Assembly (NCBI RefSeq): GCF_032854445.1
Contig: NC_088295.1
Span: forward strand, 86,224,644 to 86,288,643
DNA: 64,000 bases
Direction of reading: 5' to 3'
From: Liolophura sinensis
Lineage: Eukaryota; Mollusca; Polyplacophora; Chitonida; Chitonidae
Shown here: positions 4,243 through 43,200 of the stretch, one piece after another
Layout of the letters: each line of letters opens with the position of its first letter
Position numbering within the stretch: position 1 is the first letter of the stretch
The notes under the pieces: model-generated
Seen by the model: the letters and a program-made list of their open reading frames with translations, nothing else
Told to the model about the DNA's origin: nothing
Database searches by the model: none
Made by a program: the position numbers and the translations under genes

Positions 4243-7200
4243 ATGGCAGAGGGAGATCCAGTGACATTGGTAAATATCGGAACGGCTTAAACTTATGACA
4301 CCAACAGTGCACGGGTGATCGTGCATGATTACTACATAGTTACATTGAGAATCTCAGTGAGATGGTTAGACGCAGTGTTGCAGCAATTCTTTCTCGCTTA
4401 TTCTTGGGTGATTACCAGTGGGTGTCTTGAGCTTTTAAACAGCTTCATTTTTCACAGAACCTTTCTCCGGCCTACGTGCAGATAACCTGAGATTGCTCTT
4501 TGACGTTAAGTTTGGGAAAATTTTTTTTGACCAAGGATGGCCCCAAACCAACAACATAGCACGCTTCAGTCCGAAATTGCTGAGACGTTAGATTTGGCAA
4601 AAATTTTGATCGGCCAAGGATGGCCTCAAACCAACATCAGAGCGTGCTCCATTTAAAAACAGTATCTGAGACCAAAATTACACATCAAATATGTGTGTAT
4701 GCGGCCTAGAGCTTGCAGACATTTGTCTGCCTTATCTTTCTGTCTGTTGATGTATCACAAGCACAATGTAAGTCGGTTATTTCCTAGTTCATGTGGTCCT
4801 GAGATTCCTTGGTGGTGCTCAAAGCGAACGGCTGTACTGACAGCCTCGACATATGTGACATGGGCAGGTAACTGCTTCAGGCTTATAAATGGTGCATGCT
4901 CTGACGTTGGTTTAGGGCCATCCTTGGACAAACAAAGATTTTCCAAACCTAATGTCAGAAAAATGTTGGACTAATTGGGTTCCATTTAAATATGTGATGC
5001 CATTGATTACCCTCAATATGATAAGTCACTGTTTAACTCTCTACTGTACCTGTGGCTTGAGCCAGTCAAAGTTGCGGAGTGAGGTAATTTAAGCATTGCA
5101 GCTGCAAGAATTCAGGAGCGAAATTACCCAAATGTTTCGCATTTACAATAAGGAACATTTACTGGTGTTCACTTGTGCATAAAAACTTTAGGAGCATAAC
5201 CATGGTCAACCAGATGTTCCTAGGTAAACCATAACCTGTTGGTTAGTTGACCGAATGAAAAATAGTTCATGGCAATCACAAAACTTCACAAAATAGAAAA
5301 TTTTCAGGGTTGTCTTAGTCATTGGATAAATTTGGTCACTCAAAGTGTAGTCAAGGGAAATAATTCATAGTTTTGAGCACCCGGGTTCCTGTCAAGGAAC
5401 AGGTGGTGATAAATAACAAGGACCTAAAATGAGGGAAATGCTGATTTTTGCTGATTGCCAAGTACTACAAGACACTGAAAGTATCATATTTGAAGGCTAG
5501 ACACCTTCTGAGTACTTTTCGGAAAGTATTTTTGGTAGCATTTTCTTATTGGTAGCATTTGCTGATTGCCTGCATTCAAGCGAGGTAACCCTATCTAGAT
5601 AACAGCTTCTCCACACCTAGATCAAGTGTTCTAAGGTAAGTGTTATGTACTGCATTAAGGGAATAGCCTCACTTGCGTACGTTTGTTTCCGTGTTTCTTT
5701 TCAAAAAATGTGTGATGTGAAAAATGAACACGTGCAGAAATAATTTTGTTCATCTTTTTTTTTTAAATTATTTCAGGCGAAGATTAACTATTGCAGCAGG
5801 GAAAGATATTATGGCCAGATGGAGAATGCAGCTGCTGAAGGGTTACAAAAATATGGAAATGACCCAGTTTTAAAATTCTTCAGGGCATATGCCATGATCC
5901 AACAAGGTATTCACATTCTGTACATATGCATTTCCGTGATCTTTAAACGTGAGCAAAGATGTAAAAAAAAAAAAAAAAATTAACATCATTATTTAATCTC
6001 TTTATCTGTAATAAACCATATGTTGTAGTGCTTGAGTGTGAATCAAACTGACTTACTAGTTACCATAATGTTAAGATAAAAATCATTGATATTTTGTAAT
6101 GATGCAAAATTTAATGTTTCAGAATTTCCACATCCACAGTGATGAGTCACACGCAATCTGACAAATGCAGTGATTGTGTTCTGGTCATGTCATGGATGTC
6201 ATGATTACAGGATTGTAATTACAGCTTATGTCATTATTTATCTGTCTTGTCAAATCTGGATGCGTCCTCTTTTTAATAGATCGTATTCAGGAGGGAATGA
6301 GAGAGTTAGAACTCCTCAAGGACAAGAGAGACGTCAACCTTTGCTCTACTATGGCGCTTATGTATGCTCATAAGAAGAGTCGGACTATTGGTAAGACATC
6401 ATACTGTACTAATACAAGAGTGCAGGGCCCAGTTTAACAAAGCTCTTTTAACATTAAGAGCTCGCAACTACCATGACAACGTAATGCCTACAGTACTGGT
6501 TGCTGTGGTAGTTAAGTGAACATGGAGTTAAGAGTGCTTGGTAAATCGGTGCCCAGATGTTTAACTTTACATGTCAGCAAGTTCATCATGAGACACACGA
6601 GAAATTGTGAGCTCCATTTGATTTCCTCTATCCCTGATCCTAGCTTTTTGTTTTTCAAGGCCCAGTTTCACGAAGCTGTCTTAACGTTACGAGCTCGCAA
6701 CTACCATGAAGACATAATGCCTACAGTACCGATTACCATTGTATTTAAGTGAACATAACATTGTGAACAGAGTGCTTTGTGAAACCTGGCACTAATGTAT
6801 GAATCTGTTTTTTTTTTTTACACCATACTCAATAAACATCAGATCAGTCAGGTTTGTAAGGCGAAGCCATTCTAGCCTTGACGTTATCCAACAAGTGTCT
6901 TGACTGAAAGCTGCAGCTAAACCAGCAGGAGCTAAGGTTTGACAGGTAATGTTGAAATTCCCATAATTGTCTTTACTTCCATTTTTACAGACAAAGACGC
7001 CATTATTGAATTGGACACCAAACTTAAGGAGGAGCGGAAACAGTCCGGTGAAATGGTAAGATTTTTGACATGTTTAAGCCTTTTTCTTTTTGTATGCTTT
7101 AATTTCTGAGAAAGATTTAAATGAGAAGGCACTGAAGGTCAGATGACCTTTCTCCTCATGTTAGTTGCTACATCCCCTTCGTGTTTTTATGCCGAGTCTT

Positions 7201-10200
7201 GTCTTCACCCCTCTGTTGTTCTGATGTGTATAAATGTTTAAACCTGGAAGGGATTGAAGCTTAGATTAAAATTTAACTTGATGTGTTTTAACATAAGACT
7301 GGTATTGAGGTATATATGCCTGGCTTTGTATTTGATATACTTTTGAACAATTTACCCAGGAAAGGAAAAGTTTGATATCTTTTGTACCTGACTTAAACTT
7401 TCTTAGCCCATGCCAAACATTGTACATTTTACCTGATTCTCGTATCTTGAAAAGGTGTTTTGAGGTTTCTTTTGAAGTTAGGAAGATATCTGAATAGAAA
7501 GGTAATTTTCAGCACCAAGAGTGATATTTTATGGCATTTAATTGCATCCGGTGAAATTTTAGGCTATTTACTGTATTGTCATGCTTCACTCCACAGCAAA
7601 GATCACTGAGTAGACCTCAGATACAGATGCTCCTACACATGACAAGGCATTTATGTATTGCTTTATTTATTTAGTTTAATAATTTTTCCCATTTTGGTTA
7701 GAAGCCATTGCACTTAAAATCGGTCATTAAAACTAGGGGACCACTTCAGTGGCCTAATAATTTGAGCATCAACCTCAAAGTTGGGAGACCCAGGTTCAGA
7801 CCCGAGTCAGGTCCTACCAAAGACTTTAAAAATGGTACTTGTTGCTGCCTCTTTTAGCGCCCAGCACAGAGAGGCTGAAGCAAGGAAACATTAGCAAGGA
7901 AACAGGACAGGTTGGCCCAGTGTCAGTATAAGGTGACTGGGTGGGGTGTCATATCTGGCGTCTTCAGCATGATACCTCAATGGTGGTAGCACTTTGGCAG
8001 CATGGACTCACCTTGCCATAAGAAGACACATTATATGTACACACACCTAATGACTCGTCATTGTCATATGACCAAAAAAATTGTTAAGTATGTCGTAAAA
8101 CCCCAAGCATTCATTCATTTATTCATTAAAATCAGGGTTCCCCCACAGTAAAACCTTGCTCTTCCCCAGGTTACTGACAAACCACCTGACTTAAATCCTG
8201 TGATTTCATTGGTCAGAATTTGATTGGCCGGAATTTGATTGGCCATTTTGACCAATCGAGGACATGATGTTGACATGACAAGAGAGTTGAGGTGCAGCTT
8301 CAAGCCACACAATGCTCTTGTTTTAACTATGTTGTTGAATGGTCATTCTTGTTACAAAGAATCTGTTTGTGCAGTCTTGAATTTGATAAGATTACTTATC
8401 TTCCACCAATATTGGGTGCAAGTCAGTATAGCACAGGTGGGAAAGTTTGTCAGGACCTTGTCAAGAGATGGTGGTTTACCCCAGGCACTCTGCCTTCTTC
8501 CAACGAGGTATAAAACTGACCATTGTATAAATGAAAAATTCTTGTGTGGCATTAAACAACAATCAAATATATAAACAATGCAGCACAGTAACTACAGTCT
8601 ATAGAAACCTATATTGCAATTGAAGTTGTGATACTGGTAAGTACAGTGTAAGGTGTTGCATTTATTAAGAAGGTATGTTTGTGCAGAATGACGGGATACC
8701 TGAATAAACACACAGTGTAAAGTATATCAGCTTTTAAGCTCTACTGTGAAATTATTGTGGTGCAATTAATGAATATGTCAGATGATTGTTTTTATCCTAA
8801 GAGCATCCAGAACCTCAACCCAGCATTGGTTGCATGCTTACATCTGGTGATCACAGTCTGACTGTAATGATTCTGCTGTTCTTTGCAAAAACTGTTCCTC
8901 ATCCATGTTAGTGTAATCTAGGTAGGTGAGAGACTGAAATATCTTTTGTATATCTCTCGGAAGTGTGGTGAAGTCAATCTGTTCCATGAGTACAGGTAAG
9001 AGTTTCTGCCTGCCCGTGTGAACACTCTCCAGATAGGCCATCTCTAACTCATACATACACCACTCACTCCTGAAGTATGCCTCTGTGATGAAGGTGATAG
9101 TTTTCTTGCTGTAGTGAACTGCACGGTAAATGTTTATTGCTATTGCCGTGCCGGGCATAAAATCTCGTGTATGTATGCAGAGCTGAAGTCCACGCTGTTG
9201 CTCCAGATTTGGATATATGGTATTCACAATGAAACGATGTAAACTGTCTTCATATGATAAAAATGCATCGTAGGAAACAACATCATTGTCCTCTTCATCA
9301 GTTAGTGGTTGGTAAAGCCTTAGTCTTAAAGCCAGTTGATTCTTCAAGAATCTCACCTTCCAGCGATGACGATAGAGTAATGCTGTAAGTGTGATGATGA
9401 GGATGAGAGCAGCGAAAGACACAGAAGATGCTATTATTATATTATCTTGCAGGCAATGAAGTTCTAGCTTTTTTATCAAATGTGGTAAATTGGCAAGTCG
9501 TTCATTTTTTTTCCCAAGTAGTGTGCATGTGTATGAGGAAAGGAGAATGAAAAATTTTTGGTGTTGGTCCAGCCATCTTAGAAATTCTAGGTTTTCACAT
9601 GAGCACTGAATCTGGTTTCCTAAGAACGAAATCCTTAATGCTGAATTTCTCATTGCAACCTCTAGATCGCCGCGTGCTGATGATTCAATAGTGGTCAGTT
9701 GATTATGGCTTAAGTCCAAATTTTGCAGGTTGGTCATGTGACCTACTTTGACCTGCCAATGTTTTAAACTGTTGCTGCGCAACACTAATGTCTGAAGCTG
9801 ATGCTGACCCTTTAATATAGATTCATGTAAAGTCTCTATGTTGCAATTGCTTAAATCTAGGTGTTTAAGTTTGCCTGGAATTGAAAACGTGTGGCCTTCA
9901 GTGTCATTGGCAAGACAGTTCAGATTGTTATTCGCTAGAATTATTTGTTCAAGACTTGGCATATCCTGAAAAAAGCTTTGTCCTAGAATGCTACTCTGAC
10001 CATTTGACAAGTTAATAATTCTTAGTTTGTGGAGTCCAAGTAAGGGACCTTGAAGTTCCATTTTATTGTTTGAAATATCAATGTGCGAAATACTGTTTGG
10101 CTGAAGGAAAATGATAGGTGGAATACAGCCGAACTGCAGATTGTTATTTTGTAAATAAAAGTATCTGAGCTTTGATGGAAGGGGAATAGTAAGTCTGTTA

Positions 10201-13200: not shown

Positions 13201-16200
13201 TTGTGATTCTTGTGATCTCATGAAGTCACATGACTTGAGCTGTGTACCAGGCTCACTGGTTTTATCCATGACCTACGGTTGTATATATGTGATGGATAAG
13301 ACTCTTGGGTAAGATATTTCCAAACCTTTGTCTTTACTGATTAAACATTTCTTTATTCTGTTTTTCAGCACATGATGAGCTTGTCAAGACTGGTAACAAT
13401 AAAGCTGTCAAACAAAGTCAAATGTCTACAAAATGTATCCTTAAAAAGATGGCTATGTAAATTACCGAGGACAAATTACCGAGGACATGCAAACATGTTC
13501 TAAAAACGTTAAAATTGATCTTTCCTGCTTTTGGTATTTCATAGTGTACACTACATATAATTATACCTCTTCCTCATCATAATACACTTAGCTTCATTGC
13601 AACAAATTTGTCCCCTACCATCCCCCAGCCCCCTCCAAAGTTTTCACCAAGTTGTTGTTGCACGTATCTGTACATAGTGTTTCAGGGGAAAAAACCTGTG
13701 GCGTTCTATCTTTGTGGAACTCAGACAGTCATCATACTATTGACCAGAAGCATTAAAGTGGTGCTGATTCCTCTTAAGAATAACATCCAGCAGCATACTG
13801 TGTCTGTTCCTATTCTGTGCATTATACAGACTAACATTGACAAACAAACCTCATACAGCATTTATAACACGATAGGCAGATTTGTCCCCCAATAGCAGCA
13901 TTGTCACAAGGTAGACTTTGAGAGGTGTAGCTACAGACTCTCCAGTTATGTAAATGTTTACAGTGGCAAAATCAGACCAAATTTCCAAACATACCGTTGG
14001 CATGAAGCACTGTGTCCAATTCTGTTTTGGGTAGACTTTTACTCTGTTCACCAGAGCTTTACCTTTTGGCTGACTTGTGTACTGGTAGACATGAGGTGTG
14101 GTAACAACTGGTCTGAGCCTGAAGCTGTCCTATTTCCGATGAATTAACACACTGCAGACAGGTTTATGCCTAGCACTTGTTTTCATAGAAATTTGATGCT
14201 CAAGTTACGGTGTGCAATAAACAGTGGTTATGCAACATCTGCAGTGAGCTGTATTTATTTTCACTTTTGTGATAGGACTTGTTGAACTTTAATGTATGAA
14301 GGAGCCTGGTTAGCTGTTTGTTAATGTTCACTTTTACTCTTGTCTGCTTGCCCAGTTATTATCAAAGTTGGTGTGTTTTTAAGGAAAACCATGCATATTG
14401 TTATAAAAATACATCAAGCTAATTCAAGGTGATTTGTAGGGAGTGAGACTGATTAGATTTTGTGCCCTGGTAAATTTTACAAAATATACATCATGTGGAG
14501 AACATTTTGATAAAGATCCTATGTGAGACATTTTGGTTATACAGCATGAGGCATCTGGATGTGTGTAATGTATGAAACATTTGGGTATGTTCACCATATT
14601 TAAGTTATTTGGGTTTACACCATAGGTAAACCCTGGATGGGTTTTATACTGCATGTATTAGAAATTTGTGTGTATACCAAAGGTATAATTTATTTGGATA
14701 TACACTATGTGTGAGGCATTTAGTATACACCATGGGGGAGACATTTGGTATACACTATGAGAGAGACATTGGGTATACACTATGAGAGAGACATTGGGTA
14801 TACACCATGGGTGAGATATTTGGTATACGGTATGGGCGAGACATTTGGTATGCACAATGGACAAGACATTTGAGTATACACCATGAAGGAGACATATAGG
14901 AATGCACAATGGGTAAATCATATGGATATACACTATGGGCAAGACATTTGGTATCCACTATGGTTAAAACATTGGGTATACACCATGGGTAACACATTTG
15001 ACTATACACCATGGGCAAGACATTTGGGTACATCATTGGTGAAACATCTGAGCATACACTGATGGGTGAAACATTTGGATATACACAGCGGGTGAAACAT
15101 TTGGGTATACACTGTGGATCAAACATTCAAGCATATACCATGGGCAAGACATTTGGGTATACACTGTGTGAAACATTTGGGTATACACCATGTGTGAAAC
15201 ATTTGGGTATACACAATGGATGATATTTTTGGTACATAACAGTGACACAACATTTGGTCATACAACACAGGTGAGATATTTGGATGTACATTTCAGAAAG
15301 GGATTTGGATGTAAGCCTCACTGTGGGATGGACGGGGGTGGGCGGGTAGACATTTAGATGTAGAACTACATGTAGCATGAGGAAAAATGCATTCAATTTA
15401 AGAATTTAGAATTTTTAGAATGTACACATAAAATTTTCACACCTACGCAGTACTTATTCATCTTTTCCTTTGATCCTTAGTAGAAGTTTGAACTGGTTTA
15501 GCCTAGTCTTTTTTCTCAGTCTGGGTTATGGATCACCCACGTAGATTTGTTTAAAGTAAATATGCTTTACACTTCTCAGACATCAATCTTAAGTTAAGAT
15601 GTGTTAACACAAGTGCATGAACATGCCACATGAGTACATTTACATAACTGTAAAGTATAATTCTAGGTTGGGATGGGATGGTGAAATGTATTTTTATATT
15701 GCTGCTGTGAACCACAAATGTACCTAAATGCATGCAGGCATAGCTTTTTCACTGCCAATGTTGACATCACCTGTACTGAACTTGTGTTCATTATGATGTT
15801 CTTTTCCTTACCTTTTGCTGCATAGTATAGCCTCTTATATCGGCTAGGAATTTACTGTATAACTTACTGAACTTACCTGGAATCCAAATAATGCTGTGAA
15901 ACACGTATTAACCCCTGCATTGCCCCTGTGTACCAGTAATCCATATAAGGCCTTTTGTAAATGTTGCGGCAGCCATGTTTTCCTTCGCCAACCCTGTTAG
16001 TCATGTGACTAGACTTGTAAAGTATTTTAGCCATCTTCTGACATTTTGCTGTGTTGTAATGTTCTTGTTTGTGCTCAGTAACATAATGTGATTTTGGGTG
16101 TTATTGTCTGAGCATATTTCATTGTATTTCATGCAGATAAGGCTAGGTACTACTTGTATAAATTTTTTTTGGAAGTTGCGCAGTCCTTTGGATAGCGGGA

Positions 16201-19200: not shown

Positions 19201-22200
19201 TAGACATCTATCTTAATCCCAGGTGGGATCAGTTCATCAGTTTAATAACTTCACTGAAGTATTCAACCTATGTTTGCTGGTTAAAGGGATGCCTTAATGA
19301 TGTGACCTCTATCAAAACTCCATACAGTTGGTCACAACCTATGTTTGCTGGTTAAAGCGATGCCTTAATGATGTGACCTCTATCAAAACTCCATGCAGTT
19401 GGCCACAACCTATGTTTGCTGGTTAAAGGGATGCCTTAATGATGTGACCTCTATTGAAACTCAATGCAGTTGGTCACAACCTATGTTTGCTGGTTAAAGG
19501 GATGCCTTAATGATTTGACCTCTATTGAAACTCAATGCAGTTGGTCACAACCTATGTTTGCTGGTTAAAGGGATGCCTTAATGATGTGGCCTCTATCAAA
19601 ACTCCATGCAATTGGCCACAACCTATGTTTGCTGGTTAAAGGGATGCCTTAATGATGTGACCTCTATTGAAACTCAATGCAGTTGGTCACAACCTATGTT
19701 TGCTGGTTAAAGGGATGCCTTAATGATGTGGCCTCTATCAAAACTCCATGCAGTTGGTCACAACCTATGTTTGCTGGTTAAAGGGATGCCTTAATGATGT
19801 GTCCTCTATCAAAATTCCATGCAGTTGGTCACAATTTATGTTTGCTGGTTAAAGGGATGCCTTAATGATGTGACCTCTATTGAAACTCAATACAGTTGGT
19901 CACAACCTATGTTTGCTGGTTAAAGGGATGCCTTAATGATGTGACCTCTATTGAAACTCCATGCAGTTGGTCACAACCTATGTTTGCTGGTTAAAGGGAT
20001 GCCTTAATGATGTGTCCTTTATCAAAATTCCATGCAGTTGGTCACAATTTATGTTTGCTGGTTAAAGTGATGCCTTAATGATGTGACCTCTATTGAAACT
20101 CAATACAGTTGGTCACAACCTATGTTTGCTGGTTAAAGGGATGTTTTAATGATGTGACCTCTATTGAAACTCCATGCAGTTGGTCACAACCTATGTTTGC
20201 TGGTTAAAGGGATGCCGTAATGATGTGTCCTCTATCAAAACTCCATGCAGTTGGTCACAACCTATGTTTGCTGGTTAAAAGGATGCCTTAATGATGTGAC
20301 CTCTATTGAAACTCCATGCAATTGGTCACAACCTATGTTTGCTGGTTAAAGGGATGCCTTAATGATGTGACCTCTATCGAAACTCCATGCAGTTGGTCAC
20401 AACCTATGTTTGCTGGTTAAAGGGATGCCTTAATGATGTGACCTCTATTGAAACTCCATGCAGTTGGTCACAACCTATGTTTGCTGGTTAAAGGGATGCC
20501 TTAATGATGTGGCCTCTATCAAAACTCCATACAGTTGGTCACAACCTATGTTTGCTGGTTAAAGTGATGCCTTAATGATGTGACCTCTATCGAAACTCCA
20601 TGCAGTTGGTCACAACCTATGTTTGCTGGTTAAAGGGATGCCTTAATGATGTGGCCTGTATCGAAACTCCATGCAGTTGGTCACAACCTATGTTTGCTGG
20701 TTAAAGGGATGCCTTAATGATGTGTCCTCTATCGAAACTCCATGCAGTTGGTCAGAACCTATGTTTGCTGGTTAAAAGGATGCCTTAATGATGTGTCCTC
20801 TATCGAAACTCCATGCAGTTGGTCAGAACCTATGTTTGCTGGTTAAAAGGATGCCTTAATGATGTGTCCTCTATTGAAACTCCATGCAGTTGGTCAGAAC
20901 CTATGTTTGCTGGTTAAAAGGATGCCTTAATGATGTGTCCTCTATCGAAACTCCATGCAGTTGGTCAGAACCTATGTTTGCTGGTTAAAGGGATGCCTTA
21001 ATGATGTGTCCTCTATCGAAACTCCATGCAATTGGTCACAACCTATGTTTGCTGGTTAAAGGGATGCCTTAATGATGTGACCTGTATTGAAACTCCATGC
21101 AATTGGTCACAACCTATGTTTGCTGGTTAAAGGGATGCCTTGATGATGTGTCCTCTATCGAAACTCCATGCAGTTGGTCAGAACCTATGTTTGCTGGTTA
21201 AAGGGATGCCTTAATGATGTGTCCTCTATCGAAACTCCATGCAGTTGGTCAGAACCTATGTTTGCTGGTTAAAGTGATGCCTTAATGATGTGTCCTCTAT
21301 CGAAACTCCATGCAGTTGGTCACAACCTATGTTTGCTGGTTAAAGGGATGCCTTAATGATGTGTCCTCTATTGAAACTCCATGCAGTTGGTCACAACCTA
21401 TGTTTGCTGGTTAAAGGGATGCCTTAATGATGTGTCCTCTATCAAAACTCCATGCAGTTGGTCACAACCTATGTTTGCTGGTTAAAAGGATGCCTTAATG
21501 ATGTGTCCTCTATTGAAACTCCATGCAGTTGGTCACAACCTATGTTTGCTGGTTAAAGGGATGCCTTAATGATGTGTCCTCTATTGAAACTCCATGCAGT
21601 TGGTCACAACCTATGTTTGCTGGTTAAAAGGATGCCTTAATGATGTGTCCTCTATTGAAACTCCATGCAGTTGGTCACAACCTATGTTTGCTGGTTAAAG
21701 GGATGCCTTAATGATGTGACCTCTATCAAAACTCCATGCAGTTGGTCACAACCTATGTTTGCTGGTTAAAAGGATGCCTTAATGATGTGTCCTCTATTGA
21801 AACTCCATGCAGTTGGTCACAACCTATGTTTGCTGGTTAAAAGGATGCCTTAATGATGTGTCCTCTATTGAAACTCCATGCAGTTGGTCACAACCTATGT
21901 TTGCTGGTTAAAAGGATGCCTTAATGATGTGTCCTCTATCGAAACTCCATGCAGTTGGTCAGAATAATGAACACAAGTTTTTTTTTGTGCTAATGAAGCA
22001 TTGTTGGTGCCAAAAGGATGAGTATTGTATTGTAAAGAGCAGATTAACATTACGGTATCTATATTGACGAAAGCTCAATATTGAGTAGATATGCACAGTC
22101 TGTGGTATGGAGAGTTGAGTGTAGGCACACAATTATTTGTCATGTGAACAGATATGGATGAGAATTAATACAATGTTGATAGTGGAGAAAGCAGAAGATC

Positions 22201-25200: not shown

Positions 25201-28200
25201 TTTTACATGGTAAAAATCTCAACATCACAAAATTAAATTTGCAAGTGGCCAGTTATGTAACGTGCTAAAACTAATGAATGTAATAGTAATATACAGTTTC
25301 TGGATTTTTTTTTTTATTTTTGACTCTTACAGTGTGATTGAAATTTGTTTTAAATGTTTTATTATGGCTTTATGAGGGTTAAGGTGTTCTGCTCTATCCT
25401 CAGGCTGCCTACAAGTGTGGAGATATTATTCAGGCGATGGACCGGATTGAGCCTAGAAATGCTTACCTGTACAAGTCAATGGCTCAACTATTTTCCAGGC
25501 TGGTACGTCTGTTACACATTCTAAACGAGGCTTTCAGTTTAACAGTGTTATGGTGACAAAGGAAGCTCAGGAATTGCTCATATTGAAGATCTTGGCTGGT
25601 GAAATGGTTTAAGCACTGAGTATCTCTAGGATTTACCTGTAAACATTGAGATTTGAATCCACACTTGTTGGCTAGACTATGACCTGTCAGAAGTGAGCTA
25701 GCAACATGTATGCTACCTTTGCTCAATTTATAGATACTACAATAACTTAAAGGCCAATAAAGTATTAGCTAGAGTAAAGTATTTTCTTTTCACTCTTTCC
25801 CATATGGTACAAGAATAGTTTTCAGATGTTATAGTTCTGAGTAATCTCTGCATGGAATAGACATATTTCATAAAGACATAAATGTAAGGAGATGTAGTTA
25901 ATTTGTCTTGTCCAAAATTGACTGTAACTTCTGATACATGAACCCTTTGACAGTGTGGCCGTAACAACCTGGTGCTGCAGCAGACCTGCACGCTTACGGA
26001 GAGAGCAGTGACTTTGGACAATGACAATGCTGAGTATGTGACGGAACTTGGTTTTGAACTCCTGGTTCGGGGTAAAGTAAGAGAGGCCATGAAGTGCTAC
26101 CGCAATGCTATGAAGCTGGATGAAACCAGTGTAGCTGCTCTCACAGGTAAATGCCATGATAATTGAGTGGTGTTTGGGGGGGGGGGGGGGGAGATTGATT
26201 GAGATTTTATGAAAATTTTACATGCTTGGTAAACTTTAAAGAAAACGTGATATAAACCTACATGTACGTGTTTCAGAGGAGGGCTGCTCATAGATGTAAA
26301 GCCATTTTATTCTGAGGTGCTTGGTAACTATAAATCAAGTTTTAATGCAGAATTCTTGTGTGAACGTGGAATACATGTGCACTGTGTTACAGAAACTGGA
26401 AACATTTTACATCATTCCTACATTATGCGCATATGGTTAAAAGACAAAACATTGTTCGAGTTATGTCCGCGGAAAAAGCTAAGCTGCTTTCTCAGGTTAT
26501 AGAAATAACTGGCTCCCGATCAGGTAAAATTGATAACATGGTGGCGCTTTTGATTTTCTCAATGTGCTCATTTTGCTTACCTTGAACTGCAGTACCTCTC
26601 TTATGTACTATCACAGAAATCAATTGTTATGTTTTCAAATTTTATGTGGTATAATTTATTAATGTATGTATACATGTAGATTTGATACAGTGTTGTCTTT
26701 TTTAACTGGTAATCTGTTTATGAGAACTATTTGTTAAGGATGTGTCAGGAAATATACCTGTCTGTTACAGGTATTATAAGATGTCAACTGGAGGAGAATC
26801 AGTTAGATGATGCTGCTCAACAGCTGGAGTTCCTCAACGAAATCCAGCAGAGTATTGGCAAATCAGCTGTAAGTTGGTGGTTTGATTTGTAACTGTTTAC
26901 GAGTACATATATTTGACATGAATGCAGACACTATTCAAAAAATTATGATAAACTTAAAGTGTCAACATTGCAGACAGGAATATGTTATTTATTTTGCCAG
27001 GTCACACTGTCTATTATGAAAGACACCTAGGTTTGACAAGGAGAAAATTCAGAATGTAAAGTAGACCTTGAACTTTTGACAAAAAATTTGTACACATTTA
27101 ATGGAGCAAATTACAGTAAAGCTGATTAATACATGTAAGTGCATTTAAAATTATGTCGATTATCTATTGTGTTTTTTTTTTTTCATGTTTTATTTTGGGA
27201 AATGCAGAATTTGATAAAGGTACATTTATAATGCTCTATGCAAAGCTTTGTAGTTTACGTACAGTCAAGCTACCATGTTGTATACTATACACTTCTCCCA
27301 ATCTGTCACTATGTCATGGCTGAAATATTGCCAATGCTATTTTAAGCCATAATCATTCATTTATTCACCCAATATGTGGGAGACTTTGTTGCGCTAATAT
27401 GTATCAAATTAATTTTTTTAAACTTGTTGTCTTCATGTGCGTGAAATAAATGTGCTGTTGTTAAGCCTGGATATGTTCACCTGGCAAGGATCGGTACATT
27501 CAAGCTCTTTTAATTCCTGACAAAGAGATCTTTGTATGTTCATGTTGGCAATGATTCCAGGTGTCACTACACCCTCGCATATATATGTCATTCAAGGACA
27601 TGCCACATACTACATGGCATTTTACACACATCTGACTCACAGCCTTGTCATCTGTACCATAACATAATACACATATGACTAACAGGCTTGTCATCTGTAC
27701 CATAACATAATACACATATGACTAACAGGCTTGTCACCTTCAGAATATTATTTTCCACACATCTCACTCAGAGACCATCTACAGCAAGCATTATTCACAA
27801 ATGATGACTCACAGGCTTGTCACGTACTAGTGCACAACATGGTATTACATCTGACTCACATGCTCACCACCTACAGCATTATGCGTACACCTCCAGTATG
27901 ACATTATATATACATGACTCACAGGCTGGTCACATACAAATGTACACCATGGTATTACGCACACGTCTGACTGGTATGCTCACCACCTACAGCATTATGC
28001 GTACACCTCCAGTATGACATTATACACATGTGACTCACATGCTTGTCATGTACAGATGTACACCATGGTATTACACACACGTCTGACTGGTATGCTCACC
28101 ACCTACAGCATTATGCATACACCTCCAGTATGACATTATATACACATGACTCACAGGCTGGTCACATACAAATGTACACCATGGTATTACACACACGTCT

Positions 28201-31200
28201 GACTGGTATGCTCACCACCTACAGCATTATGCGTACACCTCCAGTATGACATTTTACATACGTGACTCACAGGCTTGTCACGTACAAATGTACACCATGG
28301 TATTACACACACGTCTGACTGGTATGCTCACCACCTACAGCATTATGCGTACACCTCCAGTATGACATTTTACATACGTGACTCACAGGCTTGTCACGTA
28401 CAAATGTACACCATGGTATTACACACACGTTTGACTGGTATGCTCACCACCTACAGCATTATGCATACACCTCCAGTATGACATTATATACACATGACTC
28501 ACAGGCTGGTCACATACAAATGTACACCATGGTATTACACACACGTCTGACTGGTATGCTCACCACCTACAGCATTATGCGTACACCTCCAGTATGACAT
28601 TTTACATACGTGACTCACAGGCTTGTCACGTACAAATGTACACCATGGTATTACACACACGTCTGACTGGTATGCTCACCACCTACAGCATTATGCGTAC
28701 ACCTCCAGTATGACATTATACACACATGACTCACAGGCTTGTCACGTACAAATGTACACCATGGTATTAAACACACGTCTGACTGGTATGCTCACCACCT
28801 ACAGCATTATGCGTACACCTCCAGTATGACATTATATACACATGACTCACAGGCTGGTCACATACAAATGCACACCATGACATTATACAGTTGCTACTTA
28901 TGGCTTGACCTACAGCATCACATGATACATTTGATGCATAAGCTCACGACTTATAGCACCGCATTTTACACATGTGACTCACAAGTGTATCACTTATACC
29001 ATCCATATTTTTCGTGGACATCGTTGACTACTGATGCCTTAATTAGTACTTCATCATGTGGAAGTTATGTCACATTTTTTTTTTGGTCTTTTCTGTTCCA
29101 CTTTTCCTTTAAACTTATGATGCTTTTAGATTTACGTAGAAACCAGTACTGGCTCCAAGACATATTTTTCCGCTCAAAATAAGAAGCTGTTAAGGTTAAA
29201 GAATTTACAATTAATTCAGTATCACAAGCTCAGGATATATGGTGTGTGACTTATGCTAGAGCTGTCCAAGTAATTTTCAAAGTGAATAGCATGGAGCATA
29301 TGTGTTTGTCTCTGGTTGATATCTTGCTGTGATATAAATAGTGTTGCAGTTCGAGATAGACTGATACTTTCTGTGTGTGTCCTTAACTGTAATGTTTTTG
29401 TTTTGTGTTTTTCTTTCCTTACATAAAGGAGCTTTCCTATCTAAGTGCTGTGCTTGCATTGAAGAAAAGTGAAGCAAAAGAAAAGGTTCTGGGACTGCTG
29501 AATGAATCTGTGGAGACACACTTTTCAGCTTTGAAGGTAAGATTGACTTAGCTGTTTTATGGTTGTTGGTGTGTGGAGATCAGAACCCCACCCTCTGTAT
29601 AGTGGCGTTGGATGACCTACTTTTGGCAGCCATACTGGAGTACTACAGCTATACCAATCCATGTTAATGGGACTCCAATATGGCTGACTGGTTCCTGTCC
29701 TGCTAGCGGGGTGATGTCATATCTGTACTTACAAGTGTTGCATATATATATACATGCAGTGGCTGTGCTCACAGCACTCCTGTTATTTTTTTGAGGGGTG
29801 AGTCTTAGTCTCTCTGATTAAGCTACCTTAAGAATTCACTTGCCTTTCTCTAATGTAGCATAGTCATTTAGATTGCTTTGTGGGTGAAATTACGTCAAAT
29901 GTTTGAATTTTCAAGTTACTTGCACGAGGCCTGTGGCATACTAAGGTACTCCCCCCACCCGTGAAAACTGACTGGCAGGGTGTAAATTAAAGTGCTACAT
30001 TAATACCAATTAATCTATAGCCTGAGTTAAAATGTTTCTGTAATGCGGAAGAGCCAAGAGTAAATTTCAAAAACAGAAAAATATCCTGCTCATCATAGTT
30101 TTGTGAACAGCCTCGCCATTCTGTGATCATTTGTCTTTTTTTGCAGGGATTGCCACTAGGGGCCGATTACTTCTATCACCTGAACCCAGACTTCCTCCTG
30201 CAGGTCATCAAGATCTACCTTCAGTATGCTCCTCAACAGGTAGGTTTATGACCTTACCTACCAAAGTGTAAATGTCATTGTGATCATACGACGATTGTTA
30301 ATTTAAGAATATGTCAAAACCCAAGCATACAGTGTACTGTAAAATCTGGATATGCACATGTTACAGTGGTCTTGTCCATGACATTGCTCAGTACATATGA
30401 GGCGTCTGTTCAGTCACAGCCACAGCAGTCACAGGGAATGTTCAAGGTGTTACCTTCTAAAGTCAGCACTAAATCTGCTAAAATTTATATTGCCGGTCAC
30501 AGTATAACTTTGTCAAACTTTAGAATCATTCCAACACTAATAACAGTACAGGGACTAGTCTGATATTACTGAAAGGCCATAATTTGTTCTTGGTAAATAA
30601 AGAAATTTGGATTTAATCAGTGAATATGGGTTTTTTGCCCAAAATCTGTGTTGTAGAGTGTTTAATGAGTAGTTTTAAGTGCCGAAAGTTATTTGTTATG
30701 CATTGACTATGGCCTTTTTCTCCTCCCAGCCTGCTACCGCTGGTCAACCAGTTGACCCCACCCTGAAGCGCTGTAGTCAGATCCTTGACCCCCTGACCAG
30801 AGCTGTCCCTGGACTATTGGAGGGACTTTACCTGATGGGCAGAGTGAAGTTTCTCTTGGGTAATTATGTTTATTCTCAGTAAATCAGTGAGCTAAATCAT
30901 TTATATTTGAATAGTTGGAAGTTAAAAGTTATAATGTCTATTCTCATTTGAAAAATGGAGGTGTTCAGTGTTGTCCAGTTTTTACATAGGTATATAATCT
31001 TCTAATTTGCACCCTGAAAGTTGAAATGAACATCAATTACAGGTGAGATTGATTCTGCCCAGAGCACTCTCCAGCATTGTTTGGACAGAGATCCCACGGT
31101 GTCTGATCTACATATCCTGATGGCACAGGTAAAAACTTGCATCTGTCATCTTGTGAAATATATAGGAACTCAGCTTTATCTGACCTTATGTTACAGCAGA

Positions 31201-34200: not shown

Positions 34201-37200
34201 AACATCACACGTGCATTGGAATCAAACTCACTTGCAAAGAAAATGTAACCAGTTACTTCCATTATTCGTAGAAAAATCCTTTTCTTTTTGCTTATACTCA
34301 TGCAATAATCAGAAGCTTAAGCCTAAAATATCAAATAACACATGGATCACACATCAACAGGAGGAAATGACGCAAGTGATGTTGCGTTAATTACTTACAT
34401 TTCTTGGTGAAAAATCTTTATTCATTTGCAGCTTTAGCATAGAAGTACACCACAGATTTTGTGTGGAACAAGTTTGGGTCACGTTATATCCGATTGAGCG
34501 TTATATCGAGGCGTCTTAGAGCATGGAGCGGTTTTACATGAGCCACTCCCACGATCCTTTAACCTGACTGCCATCATATAAGTGAAACATTCTCAAGGAC
34601 AAATCACCAACCAATCAATCAATCATTAACTTACCAAAAACAGCAACGTAAACTGTTCTATATGAGGGAAATTTATGAGTTGTCTTTTCTGGTAACCAGC
34701 TATATTTAATTTAATACTTGACTAAAAGTTGTTTTTTACCCCAAAATCTCTCTGTCTTCATTAAGTACATGTATCAACAAAGTATATCTTCAGAATTTAT
34801 GGTATAAATTTAGTTTTATCAGTTTATATCTTAAACTGAGGTATTGTGCACCATTGTACGATAAAATCTCATTTCCATTTCAATAGCATGAAGCGGCCAA
34901 AGTTATGCAGGATGCCATTAATGCGTTCCAAGGTACACCGGAGGAAGTGAGAATCACCATTGCTAATGCAGACCTGGCTTTGGCTAGACAGGATGTAGAA
35001 ATGGCTCTAGGCATGCTCAGAAACATCACTCCTGAGCAGGCTTATTTTGTGCAAGCACGAGAAAAGATGGCTGACATTTATCTTAACTATAGGAAGGACA
35101 AAAGACTTTATGCAAGCTGTTACAGGTGATTGTATATTCCTGTTTTGAATGTTTCCCATTCTATAATATAAACTCTGTATCTTTCCCTCTGAAATTTAAA
35201 ATTAAAAAGAATTACATACAAATTAACTGTATAAAGATATTGTTGAGGAATGGCTTTATGAAAGGTGACAACTTCAGAGGTACCTCTTTCTAAACTTAAC
35301 ATGCTATATTCAGTTGAGCATACAGTTATCAACCAGGCTATTATAAGGTTCTGTGGAATGCCACTAGCTCACCCTTAGAGCACTGCTAGCTCACCACTCG
35401 CACATTACGAGTACACTTTATACAAGATTTCAGCATTCCACTTGGAGCCTTCTTCAGTCCATAAGGTTATTGCTGAGGTTTGTTGATAAACCAGCTGTTT
35501 GCCATTCCACAGTATGTCCATTGCATTGCTACAGGCAAACCAGAGGCAGACTAGCTGCACACCATGGGGATACCACAAGAGAACTTTTAACACTGGCTTA
35601 AATTGTATTTTGCTTGTCATCTTTGTCACCATACTCTTTCTGTTTACGATGTTGGGAGAATGAACTGCATTTCTTTGAAAAGATTCAGAATGTAAAAAAA
35701 CGGTTCACATTTGTTCATCTTGTTCAGACAGTGGTGTCAGAATTTTTTTTGGCCCTTGTTTTGCAATGATATGTTCATAACATAGCTTGAAGCTTATTAA
35801 AGAGGACTTGTTGTTTTGAGAATTATGGTTATTAAGGAACCTAGCTGAAGACGTGTCATGTTATGTTTCATATATAATGGTTGGTCAGTTTAAGGTGTTG
35901 TTGTTGTTTCCAGGGAGTTGGTGGACAAACATCCTAGTCCTCAGACAAGTATATTGCTGGGGGATGCCTACATGAGTATACAGGAGGTGAGCGAATCAAA
36001 CAACTATTCATGACCTGTTAGTATTCAGTAACATTCTGATGAGAAAATTACTTGTCCTGGGAGATTGTCACCCCTTTATAATAGACTCTTTAATAGGTGT
36101 TTGTTATTTTTTCCTTTTTTGTGTGTATTATGAAATTTTGTTGGTAGTTTTAACAAAATTTTGAGTTGACCTTTTGTCGGCTCAGCACATGCCCATACGT
36201 AGGAAACAGAGATGCTGAATTGATGGTATTGTTTGTATTTCAGCCAGAAAAAGCCATAGAGGTTTACGAAGCAGCACTGAAAAAGAATCCACGAGATGCT
36301 GGACTGGCCAGCAAGATCGGCCAGGCATTGGTTAAGACACACCACTATGGAAAGGTGAGATGATGTACCTTTTGTACATTGAAATTATATATGAAAGAGG
36401 CACAGAAATGGCTTTGGAACATTGAAGTAAAACACAGATATTTCCTGATTACATTGTAACATATTGTGGGTTATGGATTGTTTTTGCGTTTTTACAGGCC
36501 ATGAATTACTATGAAGCAGCTCTAAAGTCTGGAGGACAAGCATTTCTCAGGTGTGAAAACTTTGAATATTAGTAGAATAAATTTCCTTGGATATTACTAA
36601 CACATAATTATGTCATTAACTCAATATTAGATAGGTGTACCTTAGTGTCAAAAAGTCAGTGGTAGTATGTACCTCATTGTCAAAGAAGTCAGTGATAGTA
36701 TGTACTTTATTGTCAAAAAAGTCAGTGATAGTATGTACCTCATTGTCAAAGAAGTCAGTGATAGTATGTACTTTATTGTCAAAGAAGTCAGTGGTAGTAT
36801 GTACCTCATTGTCAAACAAGTCAGTGGTAGTATGTACCTCATTGTCAAACAAGTCAGTGATAGTATGTACCTCATTGTCAAACAAGTCAGTGGTAGTATG
36901 TACCTCATTGTCAAACAAGTCAGTGATAGTATGTACTTTATTGTCAAAGAAGTCAGTGGTAGTATGTACCCCATTGTCAAAGAAGTCAGTGATAGTATGT
37001 ACCTCATTGTCAAAGAAGTCAGTGATAGTATGTACCTCATTGTCAAAGAAGTCAGTGATAGTATGTACCTCATTGTCAAAGAAGTCAATGGTAGTATGTA
37101 CCTCATTGTCAAACAAGTCAGTGGTAGTATGTACCTCATTGTCATAGAAGTCAGTGGTAGTATGTACCTCATTGTCAAACAAGTCAGTGGTAGTATGTAC

Positions 37201-40200
37201 CTCATTGTCAAACAAGTCAGTGATAGTATGTACCTCATTGTCAAACAAGTCAGTGATAGTATGTACTTTATTGTCAAAGAAGTCAGTGGTAGTATGTACC
37301 CCATTGTCAAAGAAGTCAGTGATAGTATGTACCTCATTGTCAAACAAGTCAGTGATAGTATGTACTTTATTGTCAAACAAGTCAGTGATAGTATGTACAC
37401 CATTGTCAAAGAAGTCAGTGATAGTATGTACCTCATTGTCAAACAATTCAGTGGTAGTATGTACCTCATTGTCAAACAAGTCAGTGATATGTTTCAGATA
37501 TGACCTTGCTGTGTTGCTGTTAAAACTTCGTCAGTATGATAAAGCAGAAAAAGTGCTGAGGAATGCCTTAGATTCAGAGAGCACAGGTATAGTATGCATC
37601 ATTATATCAGAGACCACGTACAGTACTGGAATTTCTATATCCGACTTCAAACATTTATGTGCCTATGCTAATATTTTAATGAGTTGTAAAATTTTATGAA
37701 AAGCTGTGTTTAGAACCAAGTTTATCATAAAATTAATTAGGTTACATTTATGAGGTGCAATGTTCCTTTTAGCCTGATTAAAAGGGGTCTCATTGTGGTG
37801 CAAAATTGAATGTAAAATGACACAGAATATGCTATAATTTAATAGGAAATAGTGATATTGTCAACAACAATGGTTTAACTTTATGTGGAAAATCAACCCT
37901 GTTGTTCTGAAGTGGTTTATACTTGTTAATTTGGAGAGAATCTGTTTTTGTCACCAGATTTAGACTCCATGATGGAGGAGACTCGCTACCAGATGTTGTT
38001 ATCCAAGGTTTACCAGAAAGTGGAGAAAACTGAGGATGCCCTTCTCTCTCTGACCAAAGCCAGGGACACTCAGGCTAGGTAATAGGACCTGTAGGGTAGC
38101 TACATAGAGAGGTACTGAAAAAAAGACAAATAAAGGAAATGTAATACCACTTTTGCTGCTGAAACTTACATTTTTTGTAGTAGCATGTGTTACATGTACA
38201 TGTACCTTCCAAACAAACCTCAAGAAACTTTTCAAAATCAATAGAACTCTCAGAATCTGACAAAATAAGAAACTTTGGTCATGGACACATAATTTTTGTG
38301 CTTACAGTCTAGAACTGACTCATTTAATATGCTTTTCCATATCTATTGCAATTAAGGGGCATATATTACCTATATGTGTGTAAAAATAAAGAAATAATGA
38401 TAAACACAGTTGGTAAACCTAGACACTGTGTGTTTTATTTGTAGAGTTCTGAAGCGAGTGCACCTGGAGCAACCAGACTCAGTGGCCAGCCAGAAGCAGC
38501 TAGCAGCCAGGTATGTGTTGTTAGTAAGACCAGGATATTTGTGAATTGTGGTGGGCTCTGAACATGTCGTAAATTGAATTTACCTGTATTAAGAAGTAGT
38601 CCTGTGTATTTTGTAAGAGCTGTGTGTGAGAAGTGTTGGTATATTTTTGTTGGTAATGATAATGAAAAAATTATGTGATGATAGTATTAAATATGACAGT
38701 TAAAAAATTCTCACTAAAGTCTGATACTAATGGTATGTATAGGAATGCCTTTATCTGAAGGCTTCAGATGTAAGGAAATAATCGATTCATTGTCTTTCGC
38801 TTTGGCAGTATCTGTTGTGAGATAGCAGAGCTTGAAGCTGGGCAGCGGAACTTTGAGAAAGCCATCAAATCGTATAAAGAGGCTTTGGTGTATGATGAGA
38901 ATAATGCCAAGGTTAGTGCTTTGTTGCATCATTAGGTATGATGAGAATAATGCCAAGCTGACAACTGTGTTGCATCATTAGGTATGTTGAGAATAATGCC
39001 AAGGTGACAACTGTGTTGCATCATTAGGTATGATGAGAATGATGCCGAGGTGACAGCTGTGTTGCATCATTAGGTATGATGAGAATGATGCCAAGGTGAC
39101 AACTGTGTTGCATCATTAGGTATGATGAGAATGATGCTGAGGTGACAGCTGTGTTGCATCATTAGGTATGATGAGAATGATGCCGAGGTGACCGCTGTGT
39201 TGCATCATTAGGTATGATGAGAATGATGCCGAGGGTGACAGCTGTGTTGCATCATTAGGTATGATGAGAATAATGCCGAGGTGACAGCTGTGTTGCATCA
39301 TTAGGTATGATGAGAATAATGCCGAGGTGACAGCTGTGTTGCATCATTAGGTATGATGAGAATAATGCCGAGGTGACAGCTGTGTTGCATCATTAGGTAT
39401 GATGAGAATAATGCCGAGGTGACAGCTGTGTTGCATCATTAGGTATGATGAGAATAATGCCGAGGTGACAGCTGTGTTGCATCATTAGGCATGATGAGAA
39501 TAATGCCAAGCTGACAACTGTGTTGCATCATTAGGTATGACGAGAATGATGCCAAGGTGAGTGCTTTGATGTATGGCTATCATCAAAAGTTTTTTGAGTT
39601 GAAAAAATATAAACAGTGGACTTCAGTTTGATAGATTTTCCTCTTACCTTTCTGTGACTACCAATTCTGATTCCCAGGTGATGCTTGATCTAGCTGGTCT
39701 CTACCTGAGCACAGAGGACTTGGATGCTTGTCAACACCAGCTCATGTCCCTCCTACAGACAGAGAGGGAAAATGATGCAGCCACCATTGTAAGTTGTAGC
39801 TCTGATAGATAGTGTTATACCAGGAAGAAGTGTGGCCAACAACCAAGAACAATACCATTGCTTGGTGTTTATCTGTCTGTTTAATAATGTACATGTACTG
39901 AATTTGCCCTACAAATTGGCCCAGGAAAGTGCATTTTAGGGACAAATAGCAGTCAAAAAATATTATATTGTTGCTATGGAAACTTACATATTTGTTAAAT
40001 CTTAAATCACCTTTCTCAGGTCTATAAAATCTCATTATCAGACAAAATGAGAGACTTGGAGAAGCACAAAAGATTAAGTCAAACAGAAGTGACACATCAT
40101 ATTTATGCTAACAGCCCAAGACTGATGCATGAATTTAATATGCTTTCCTTTCCTGATAAAATTCATCTGGTTGCAGGTGCGGTCAAGGCATTTTCTTTAA

Positions 40201-43200
40201 GACTCGATCAGTTTTTTCCACAGCAGGTGCTCCTCGTAGCATATGCCTTACAACTTTCTTGTGATTGCAGATGCTTGCAGACTTAATGTTCAGGAAAAAT
40301 GATTATGAAACGGCCAGGTTTCACTTTCAAAAACTTCTTGTCAGGCAACCAGGTGAAGTATTTGTTTACCTGAAATAAAGAGATTTTATCCTGACGTATT
40401 TGTAATCTATTTGTTAAAATATATTTTGTTTACTGTAAATAAAGTCATTTATTTTCACCTTTGATGTGAATCTCAGTATTAGAATTTGCATATCCTGTTG
40501 GAGTTTCTTTGATCTTATGATACTGAAAATCTCATTTGGTAATGCTGTCATTACAAGAATTGTATTTAGCATGGCTCTGTAGCTCCAGGGTTGTAATGAT
40601 TTGATAGTCGCATTTTCATTCTCTGACAAACAATAGGAATCATTTCGTGAGTTACATGTATTTAATGTATTACAATTAGAAGATTTATGTTTATCTGTCA
40701 GACAACTACCAAGCCCTGGCACGTTTGGTGGACCTGATGAGGAGGAATGGTAATCTTGATGAAGTCCCTGCCTTCTTGGAGGCAGCTGAGAAGGCCACGG
40801 CCAGGTCTACCATAGACAGCGGCTTCAATTACTGCAAGGGGCTTTATGAGTGGTAAGTCTGGGCGGACAGTTGTTCTGACAGCTGCTTTAAACTAATGCA
40901 AGGGGCTCTGTGAGTGGTAAACCTGGGCAGACAGTTGGTCTGACAGAGGCTTTAACTACTGGAAGGGGCTCTATGAGTGGTAAGCCTGGACAGACAGTTG
41001 TTTTCAAAGAGGCTTCAACTACTGCAAGGGGCTGTATGAGTGGTAAGTCTGGGCAGATAGTTGTTCTCAAAGGGGCCTAAACTAATGCAAGGGGCTCTGT
41101 GAGTGGTAAGCCTGGGCAGACAGTTGTTCTCAAAGGGGCCTAAACTAATGCAAGGGGCTCTGTGAGTGGTAAGCCTGGGCACAGTTGGCCTGACAGCAAC
41201 TTTATCTACAGCAAGGTGTCTATGACTCGTACGTGTGGACAAACTATTATACTTTGCTGTATACTACAGCTTTAACTGCTTGTTGTTTTTACCATGTGCA
41301 TACTTTTGTATGTTTGTGCCTGTTGGATCTATGTCCATGTAGTGAATTGGTTATTGATGGCTTTTTGCTTGTTCATCTTCATTTGATGGGTATCATTATT
41401 GTCTCAGTTGTATACAAATTATCAAGTGTACATGTGTATACATACTGCAGCCAGCTCTGATCACTTTATGTTTATGATGTAGGTACACAGGCAACCCCAC
41501 AGCTGCCCTGAAGTGCTTTAACAAAGCTCGCAAAGATTCAGAATGGGGGAATCAGGCCATCTACAACATGATAGAGATCTGCCTGAACCCAGACAATGAA
41601 ACCATTGGAGGGGAAGTGTTCGAGTCGGTGGAAGGAGATAGTTCGTGAGTCGTATAATGTATACTTATCTTTATACTTATTTTGTTTTTATCTGTTAGAC
41701 ACAATGTCCAATATGTTCTATTTATGGTGAGCAGATTATGGCAGATTACGTGCCAAATTTGGACTGTCCAACTGAGGCACTAACTGTTTTAGCTAAAGGA
41801 AGATCAGGCAATCCTAGAATCATAAAGAAATGGAGATTGATAGAAAGTGACAAGTCATATATTTTCTGTATGCTTCATTTTGAAGTCCTTTAAAGTGTTA
41901 TTTCATGTTGAAATTTCATGTTGAAATTCACATTTGTATTTGTCAGGAGCCAGATGGACCGAGACAAGGCCGACAGTGAACAGATGGCTGTGCGGACAGC
42001 GGAGAAACTTCTTAGGGTAGGTCACGCTAACTCATGCCCTTCCCAGAACTTTGTGGCTTTTTAAAGGTTTTTTCTTTCTTATCCACAGGCTTCTCTAAAA
42101 TTTAGTCAGCAATCTGAGAAAGTTGTAGTTGCCACCTTAGAAGATGCAGAGAATGTCCACAACAGCCTGCATTATTGGAAAAGAAAGTAATAAGAAAATA
42201 ATTACAAAATTTGATTGGTATTCCCATGTAACTTATATTGTGAATTATTCTCTGTGAACCTAAATTTGACTGTTTCAGGAAATAAAGTCTCGTCCCGGTG
42301 ACCTCCGTCCTCGTATTTTGGAGAACATGGCTCTTATTGCCACCAAAAATCGGCAGAACGTAGAGAAAGCTCTTTCTTCTTTCATGGAGATAGCCTCGAA
42401 TGAACAGGTAACTTTGTGAGGTTTTCTTTGAGCACTGAGAATCAGCGCTTTCAGTTTTGCACGACAGAAAGATAACACACTGTTTTGTTTGATTATTCTT
42501 GAACATGACAAATTTTATGTTTGAATAGTAAACCAATATAATTTCCAGTCCTAGTAGTGCACAATTTTGACCATTTCTAACCATCCTAATGAACTTCTGT
42601 AAGTATGAAATTGAGTGTACTAGTCATTTCTGAAGCTAAAGCTAAAGAATGCTGCTGTTTTTGGATACTCAGGGCAATTATCTTTGCTAAAGTAAAAACA
42701 TGGCACTTTCTGATGACTTGTAAGAAGAGGCAACTTATTGTGGCAACATTGCTTCCCATCCTCCTTGTATACACAGTCTCAGGTAGTCATCACTTTTCAT
42801 ATCTACATGTGGTTCATGTATGTTTGTTGATTAAGGACTTATTCTGAATCTCATCCAAGGTGACCAGTTGAGTTGCTAGTGCACAGTAGGTGTGGGTTCA
42901 AACTGAGCCATCAACAGAGGATTTGTGGATTCACCCACATTAAGCCTTGGTGACAAATCAGCAGTTGACGCTGCTCTTATCTTGACTGCTGCAGTCAAAC
43001 ATTCGTTGAAGATGAGTTGTCCACCACCAGTGTATATCTGTATCTGAACATCTGACCTGGGAATCTTTGTCGACAACCTGAAAAAAGTGGGTTAATGGTT
43101 TACCCCTGGCCTTCCGCTCATAAATGTGACTGCTATTTTAGGAGTGAAAATTCTTGATTGTGTTAAACAGCAATCTAATAAAAGTGACCTAAGTTTCATG

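Follow-up and report, generated by a model that had tools for sequence, protein, structure and literature searches.

Tandem duplications of exon/intron boundaries have been described in amphioxus under the name of "mirages", in Adh3, the globin genes BflGb6 and BflGb9, troponin C and PGBD5 (PMC3087553, PMC3902484). The first mirage paper (PMC117041) is cited here through PMC3087553, and the reports concern a handful of lancelet genes (PMC3087553, PMC3902484). The lancelet arrays are minisatellite-like, have units of 10–160 bp, lie on the donor or the acceptor side of an intron, and keep GT or AG in many of their copies; they are said to vary in copy number and to leave splicing undisturbed, and new introns have been suggested to arise from them (PMC3087553, PMC3902484). 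Two other systems are close. In intron gain by tandem duplication (potato RdRp, ATP2A1; PMC4974935) exon sequence or an intron-exon boundary is duplicated beside splice signals, and ordinary intronic minisatellites consist of head-to-tail units of tens of bases within an intron. A literature search, with most subscription journals outside its scope, returned no report of mirages from a chiton or any other mollusc, and the accessible part of an earthworm paper on intronic repeats (PMC12783039) notes no junction array.

The DNA analysed here (the window) is a stretch of 64,000 nucleotides from the chiton Liolophura sinensis (C1:86224644-86288643), in a genome assembly of 609,464,459 bases and 632 sequences. 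The gene of interest was identified from the joined peptides of two neighbouring exons, which match TTC21B (IFT139) in 8fgw with an E value of 2.6e-44; the exon numbers 26, 29 and 30 used below are those of an earlier sequence-only reading of the window. Tandem Repeats Finder (TRF) places an array of period 63, with 6.6 copies and 84% matches, across the end of exon 29, and also finds a 189-base period in it. The features are as follows, in window coordinates.

38890..39560, + strand: second junction array in the same gene (exon 26), 46-bp unit, 14.6 copies (TRF); the tail of the exon and its donor region could be fitted to 13 of them.
40702..40852, + strand: TTC21B/IFT139 exon (exon 29), from its peptide against 8fgw; starts after TCTGTCAG and ends before GTAAGT; the final 38 bases belong to unit 1 of the array.
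40815..41225, + strand: tandem array of 6.6 copies with a 63-bp unit, overlapping the end of the exon (TRF, unit alignment).
40853..40858, + strand: genuine 5' splice site GTAAGT, the sole site of six that gives an open, conserved peptide when joined to the next exon.
40917..40922, + strand: extra donor-like site GTAAAC, copy 2; immediate stop if used.
40980..40985, + strand: extra donor-like site GTAAGC, copy 3; immediate stop if used.
41043..41048, + strand: extra donor-like site GTAAGT, copy 4; immediate stop if used.
41106..41111, + strand: extra donor-like site GTAAGC, copy 5; immediate stop if used.
41169..41174, + strand: extra donor-like site GTAAGC, copy 6; immediate stop if used.
41483..41644, + strand: next exon (exon 30); starts after GATGTAG, its peptide lies in the 8fgw match, and its end before GTGAGT was read by eye.

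The repeated unit at exon 29 crosses the exon-intron boundary, and the genuine boundary is itself one of the copies. By TRF and unit alignment, unit 1 is made up of 38 exon bases followed by 25 intron bases, the GTAAGT donor included, so that what was duplicated is the exon end, its donor and the opening stretch of the intron; in an ordinary intronic minisatellite, by contrast, the first unit is not coding sequence with a splice site. Besides the genuine copy, the array holds five more that carry donor-like sites (GT is kept in 5/5 of those fitted) and a decayed seventh, which is 57–70% identical to the other units. The donor-like hexamers are spaced by 64, 63, 63, 63 and 63 bases. In a rough alignment in which the start of unit 2 is shifted, units 5 and 6 are 97% alike and the other pairs among units 1–6 are 73–89% alike; units 1, 3 and 4 look like one subfamily and units 2, 5 and 6 another. 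The sequence-only reading had described six repeats of some 30 exonic bases and a donor, spaced at 63 bp up to 41235, as a pattern for which it knew no name. The array itself stands, with six sites counting the real one and hence five extra; the exonic part is 38 bases, the first spacing is 64, the end lies near 41225, and the pattern has a published name from amphioxus.

With this anatomy the exon 29 array is very probably a mirage, that is, a minisatellite that arose by tandem duplication across the junction and is tolerated with the exon-proximal donor still in use. Its 63-bp unit falls within the lancelet range. The systems differ in host, a cephalochordate against a mollusc, and the chiton case comes with a sampled frequency. 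That the array is an assembly or sequencing artefact is extremely unlikely: arrays are known to trouble assembly, and one lancelet mirage was misassembled in a draft (PMC3087553), but the HiFi reads average 8,347 bp according to the assembly paper (PMC11068029) and far exceed the length of the array, which makes an assembly error unlikely. The copies also differ from one another, and many similar arrays occur elsewhere in the genome.

Each of the six donors was joined by script to exon 30, and only the first yielded the full conserved peptide. The five downstream donors all gave ...LYEW followed by a stop: in this intron phase TG/GTAAGT is read as TGG TAA, which places TAA immediately behind the Trp codon. 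The sequence-only reading had called the copy donors usable; their hexamers are donor-like, but since all five lead to a stop at once, no protein variant can come from them, and an alternative protein by way of the downstream exon 29 donors was ruled out.

The array would have started as a tandem duplication covering the exon end, the 5' splice site and the first intron bases. Once two copies stood head to tail, slippage or unequal exchange may have added more, with only the intron growing. Judging from the reading frame, the first copy would still be joined to the exon, with its donor still used and the mRNA unchanged; because that copy stays attached and its donor remains in use, the duplication would be nearly harmless. 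The extra copies, without a coding role, would then drift like intron sequence.

The array at exon 26 starts with the tail of its own exon, and two junctions of one gene are therefore affected. The units of the two arrays are unrelated (their local alignment scores 9.0, while shuffled sequences average 7.8 and 134/500 shuffles score as high), which bears out the earlier claim that junction duplication has happened at least twice in this gene. One point at exon 26 goes against the simple picture of origin given above and is not predicted by it: the strongest donor is that of the last copy, which scores 8.0, against 4.5 in the first. The last unit also contains a 22-base micro-exon (39535-39556), through which a second route keeps the frame and encodes the same peptide except for Asn to Asp, so that the array offers two routes to one protein but for one residue.

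A reading in which such arrays are introns in the making, supplying new splice sites so that the array becomes or extends an intron, follows models put forward by Rogers and in the lancelet globin paper, and published models do form introns in this way (PMC3087553, PMC4974935). The two exon 26 routes favour it, and the exon 26 array may possibly be a case of intron gain in progress; the micro-exon route, however, begins at weak sites (donor -2.0, acceptor 1.0) and is for that reason only a lead. At exon 29, all routes through copy donors (5/5) run into an in-frame stop at once, none keeps the frame, and the acceptor used ends at 41482, outside the array. Whereas the cases in PMC4974935 are intron gains, exon 29 makes no new intron and an existing one is lengthened, and the corresponding route at exon 26 is possible but weak. 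Taken as an account of these arrays, intron gain is very unlikely.

Other repeats lie in the window. An array of about 26 copies of a 33-bp unit (36636-37489), with open stretches of 170 to 304 codons in several frames, stops some 10 bases short of a TTC21 acceptor and does not enter the exon, and TRF finds further large minisatellites at 1-2358, 14692-15223, 19264-21961 and 27626-28879.

The frequency of junction arrays was estimated from myosin heads and kinesin motors, two gene families located by profile search, with TTC21 excluded. A simple weight matrix served to call splice sites, and a junction was counted as spanned if it lay at least 6 bases inside a TRF array. From 81 myosin hits 64 were used; 16 lay outside the fetched loci or overran a locus edge, and C2:5385090-5385236 (L015), with neither junction spanned, stood outside the count (its inclusion gives 17/360). 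Locus L004 held no whole myosin hit. The kinesin profile gave 132 hits; 15 that contained at least two stops were dropped before fetching, and 116 of the 117 fetched were used; two kinesin exons had no called acceptor. The seed of L038 was dropped after the result had been seen, because L038 appears to repeat the array of L037; with L038 the kinesin count is 12/232 against 3.0 expected. The statistic and the null were fixed after the myosin count and before the kinesin loci were fetched. In another part of the assembly (C8:37880506-37891931), eight haemocyanin domains (Pfam Haemocyan_bet_s) follow one another in the same orientation and probably form a single haemocyanin gene of eight units. 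Eight units per gene is a molluscan arrangement.

Arrays spanned 7 of 128 myosin junctions (2.1 expected), and 10 distinct arrays were found over 230 kinesin junctions (2.9 expected). Together these make 17 distinct arrays over 358 called junctions against 5.2 under uniform seeding (Poisson null, P 3e-5), an expectation that rests on the matrix-called sites and the uniform-seed model; two of the arrays concerned, in L095 and L025, are weak (76% matches). With a stricter array score cut-off, 150 or 300, 16 and 15 spanning arrays remain, respectively. Both kinds of boundary are affected, with 12 donor arrays (12/180 donors, 2.6 expected) and 5 acceptor arrays; acceptors alone are not significant (5/178 against 2.6 expected, P 0.12), nor is the difference between donors and acceptors over the 358 called junctions (p 0.13). 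Unit lengths divisible by three are not overrepresented (4/17 spanning arrays). About 5% of the sampled junctions thus carry such arrays, above the prediction of uniform seeding and chiefly on the donor side, the size and cause of the excess being uncertain.

Several of these loci deserve description. On the acceptor side, a 32-bp array of about 43 copies (L015, 1846-3206) spans an acceptor; its unit contains TTTGTAG then GTTTGAGCG, and the called acceptor sits at the 3' end of the array. Two kinesin arrays, L037 705-1368 and L038 1-997, have a common donor sequence, and the Pfam kinesin hit of L038 seems to be one of the copies within the array. On the minus strand of L009, two arrays with strong sense donors (4168-5211 and 9349-9589) were not counted as spanning. 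By eye, one is probably a missed myosin exon; the other looks like a decayed donor mirage that stands in a 32-base register from a called donor, with its first copies decayed. As these two were left uncounted, the junction count may be low.

Exon-only 30-mers were searched in the adjacent intron for 172 exons, at a score of at least 14. Downstream, exon ends recurred in 11 exons, exon middles in 2, exon starts in 1, reverse complements in 2 and shuffled sequences in 0; upstream, exon starts recurred in 5 exons, middles in 1, ends in 1, and reverse complements and shuffled sequences in 0. A look-alike pair in L008 stays in these counts, where it contributes 1 of the 11 exon-end, 1 of the 5 exon-start, 1 of the 2 mid-downstream and the 1 mid-upstream matches. 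The two similar myosin exons of this pair (702-800 and 1795-1887) are separated by about 1 kb and look more like alternative exons than like a mirage.

These arrays might instead be ordinary intronic minisatellites, in a genome so rich in them that some start in an exon by chance, the junction being irrelevant save that damage to the exon is avoided. The sampled loci contain 76 arrays in all, 59 of which span no called junction. Array edges are enriched just two-fold at junctions, with 16 in the 80 exon bases beside junctions and 43 between intron bases 80 and 560 (2.0-fold rate, p 0.018), and the 17 edges in the first 80 intron bases are about as dense as those on the exon side. The genome-wide scan that the sequence-only reading had proposed was run in a crude form, counting three perfect copies of AGGTAAGT 20–50 bases apart, overlapping matches included; the whole genome holds 626 matches against 468 for the backward form, and the one permuted octamer used as a control gave 400 and its backward form 134, so that donor triples are not clearly commoner than control octamers. 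Standing against chance alone are the 17 distinct arrays where 5.2 were expected on the matrix-called sites and the uniform-seed model, an excess alike in both families and at three score cut-offs. An origin in ordinary minisatellites seems doubtful, if still a serious contender. The earlier suggestion that junction duplication is a recurrent source of minisatellites thus holds in its first part, with two cases in TTC21B and 17 over 358 junctions; because 59/76 arrays span no called junction, junctions are one source of intronic minisatellites here, though on this evidence not demonstrably the main one. An origin of the other arrays in donors was also considered and found no support: strong donors were found 2 times in sense and 2 in antisense among 57 non-spanning arrays of period at least 15, a sense-antisense difference with p 0.10, and both sense cases are those in L009.

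Copy fitting was tried at 15 donor loci, of which 13 were scored (L090 and L095 gave no copies). On average per array, 90% of the copies in these 13 donor arrays retain GT, and conservation is about 0.78 at positions +3 to +6, about 0.82 at +7 to +14 and about 0.93 in exon-derived positions, a pattern consistent with a functional first copy that is constrained while the others drift. The genuine donor is at least as strong as the copies compared with it except for one copy at L032 (copy 5.2, genuine site 5.1) and the last copy at exon 26, an outcome that the site-calling method favours. The unit's sense donor is better than its antisense donor in 16/17 spanning arrays, which is partly a result of how spanning arrays were chosen.

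The same data bear on whether the copies might serve regulation, with some transcripts using a copy donor, meeting an early stop and being removed by nonsense-mediated decay, so that the level of TTC21B would be lowered. The five remaining donor-like sites at exon 29, one of them a GTAAGT that scores 5.8, equal to the genuine site, and the stop behind every one of them would suit this purpose. Across the 13 donor arrays, however, copy donors are no better kept than the neighbouring intron bases, and lancelet mirages are reported to leave splicing undisturbed (PMC3087553, PMC3902484). Such a regulatory role appears quite unlikely.

The phenomenon itself is known and was named in lancelets; added here are its presence in a chiton, a member of another phylum, and a first estimate of its frequency. 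Mirages at about 5% of sampled junctions would make splice-junction duplication more than a lancelet oddity. Each array pits several near-identical donors against one another, and arrays of this kind can mislead gene prediction, as with the L038 seed, which was matched as a kinesin exon and appears to be an array copy. We put forward only tentatively, as a possibility we hold to be unlikely on balance, that minisatellites of this chiton truly arise or persist at splice junctions more than elsewhere, most of all at donors, with roughly one sampled donor in fifteen carrying an array of itself. If this were true genome-wide, the chiton would hold a very large set of natural donor-competition experiments and a permanent stock of material from which new introns could form, and the exon 26 array of TTC21B would perhaps be one caught in the act.
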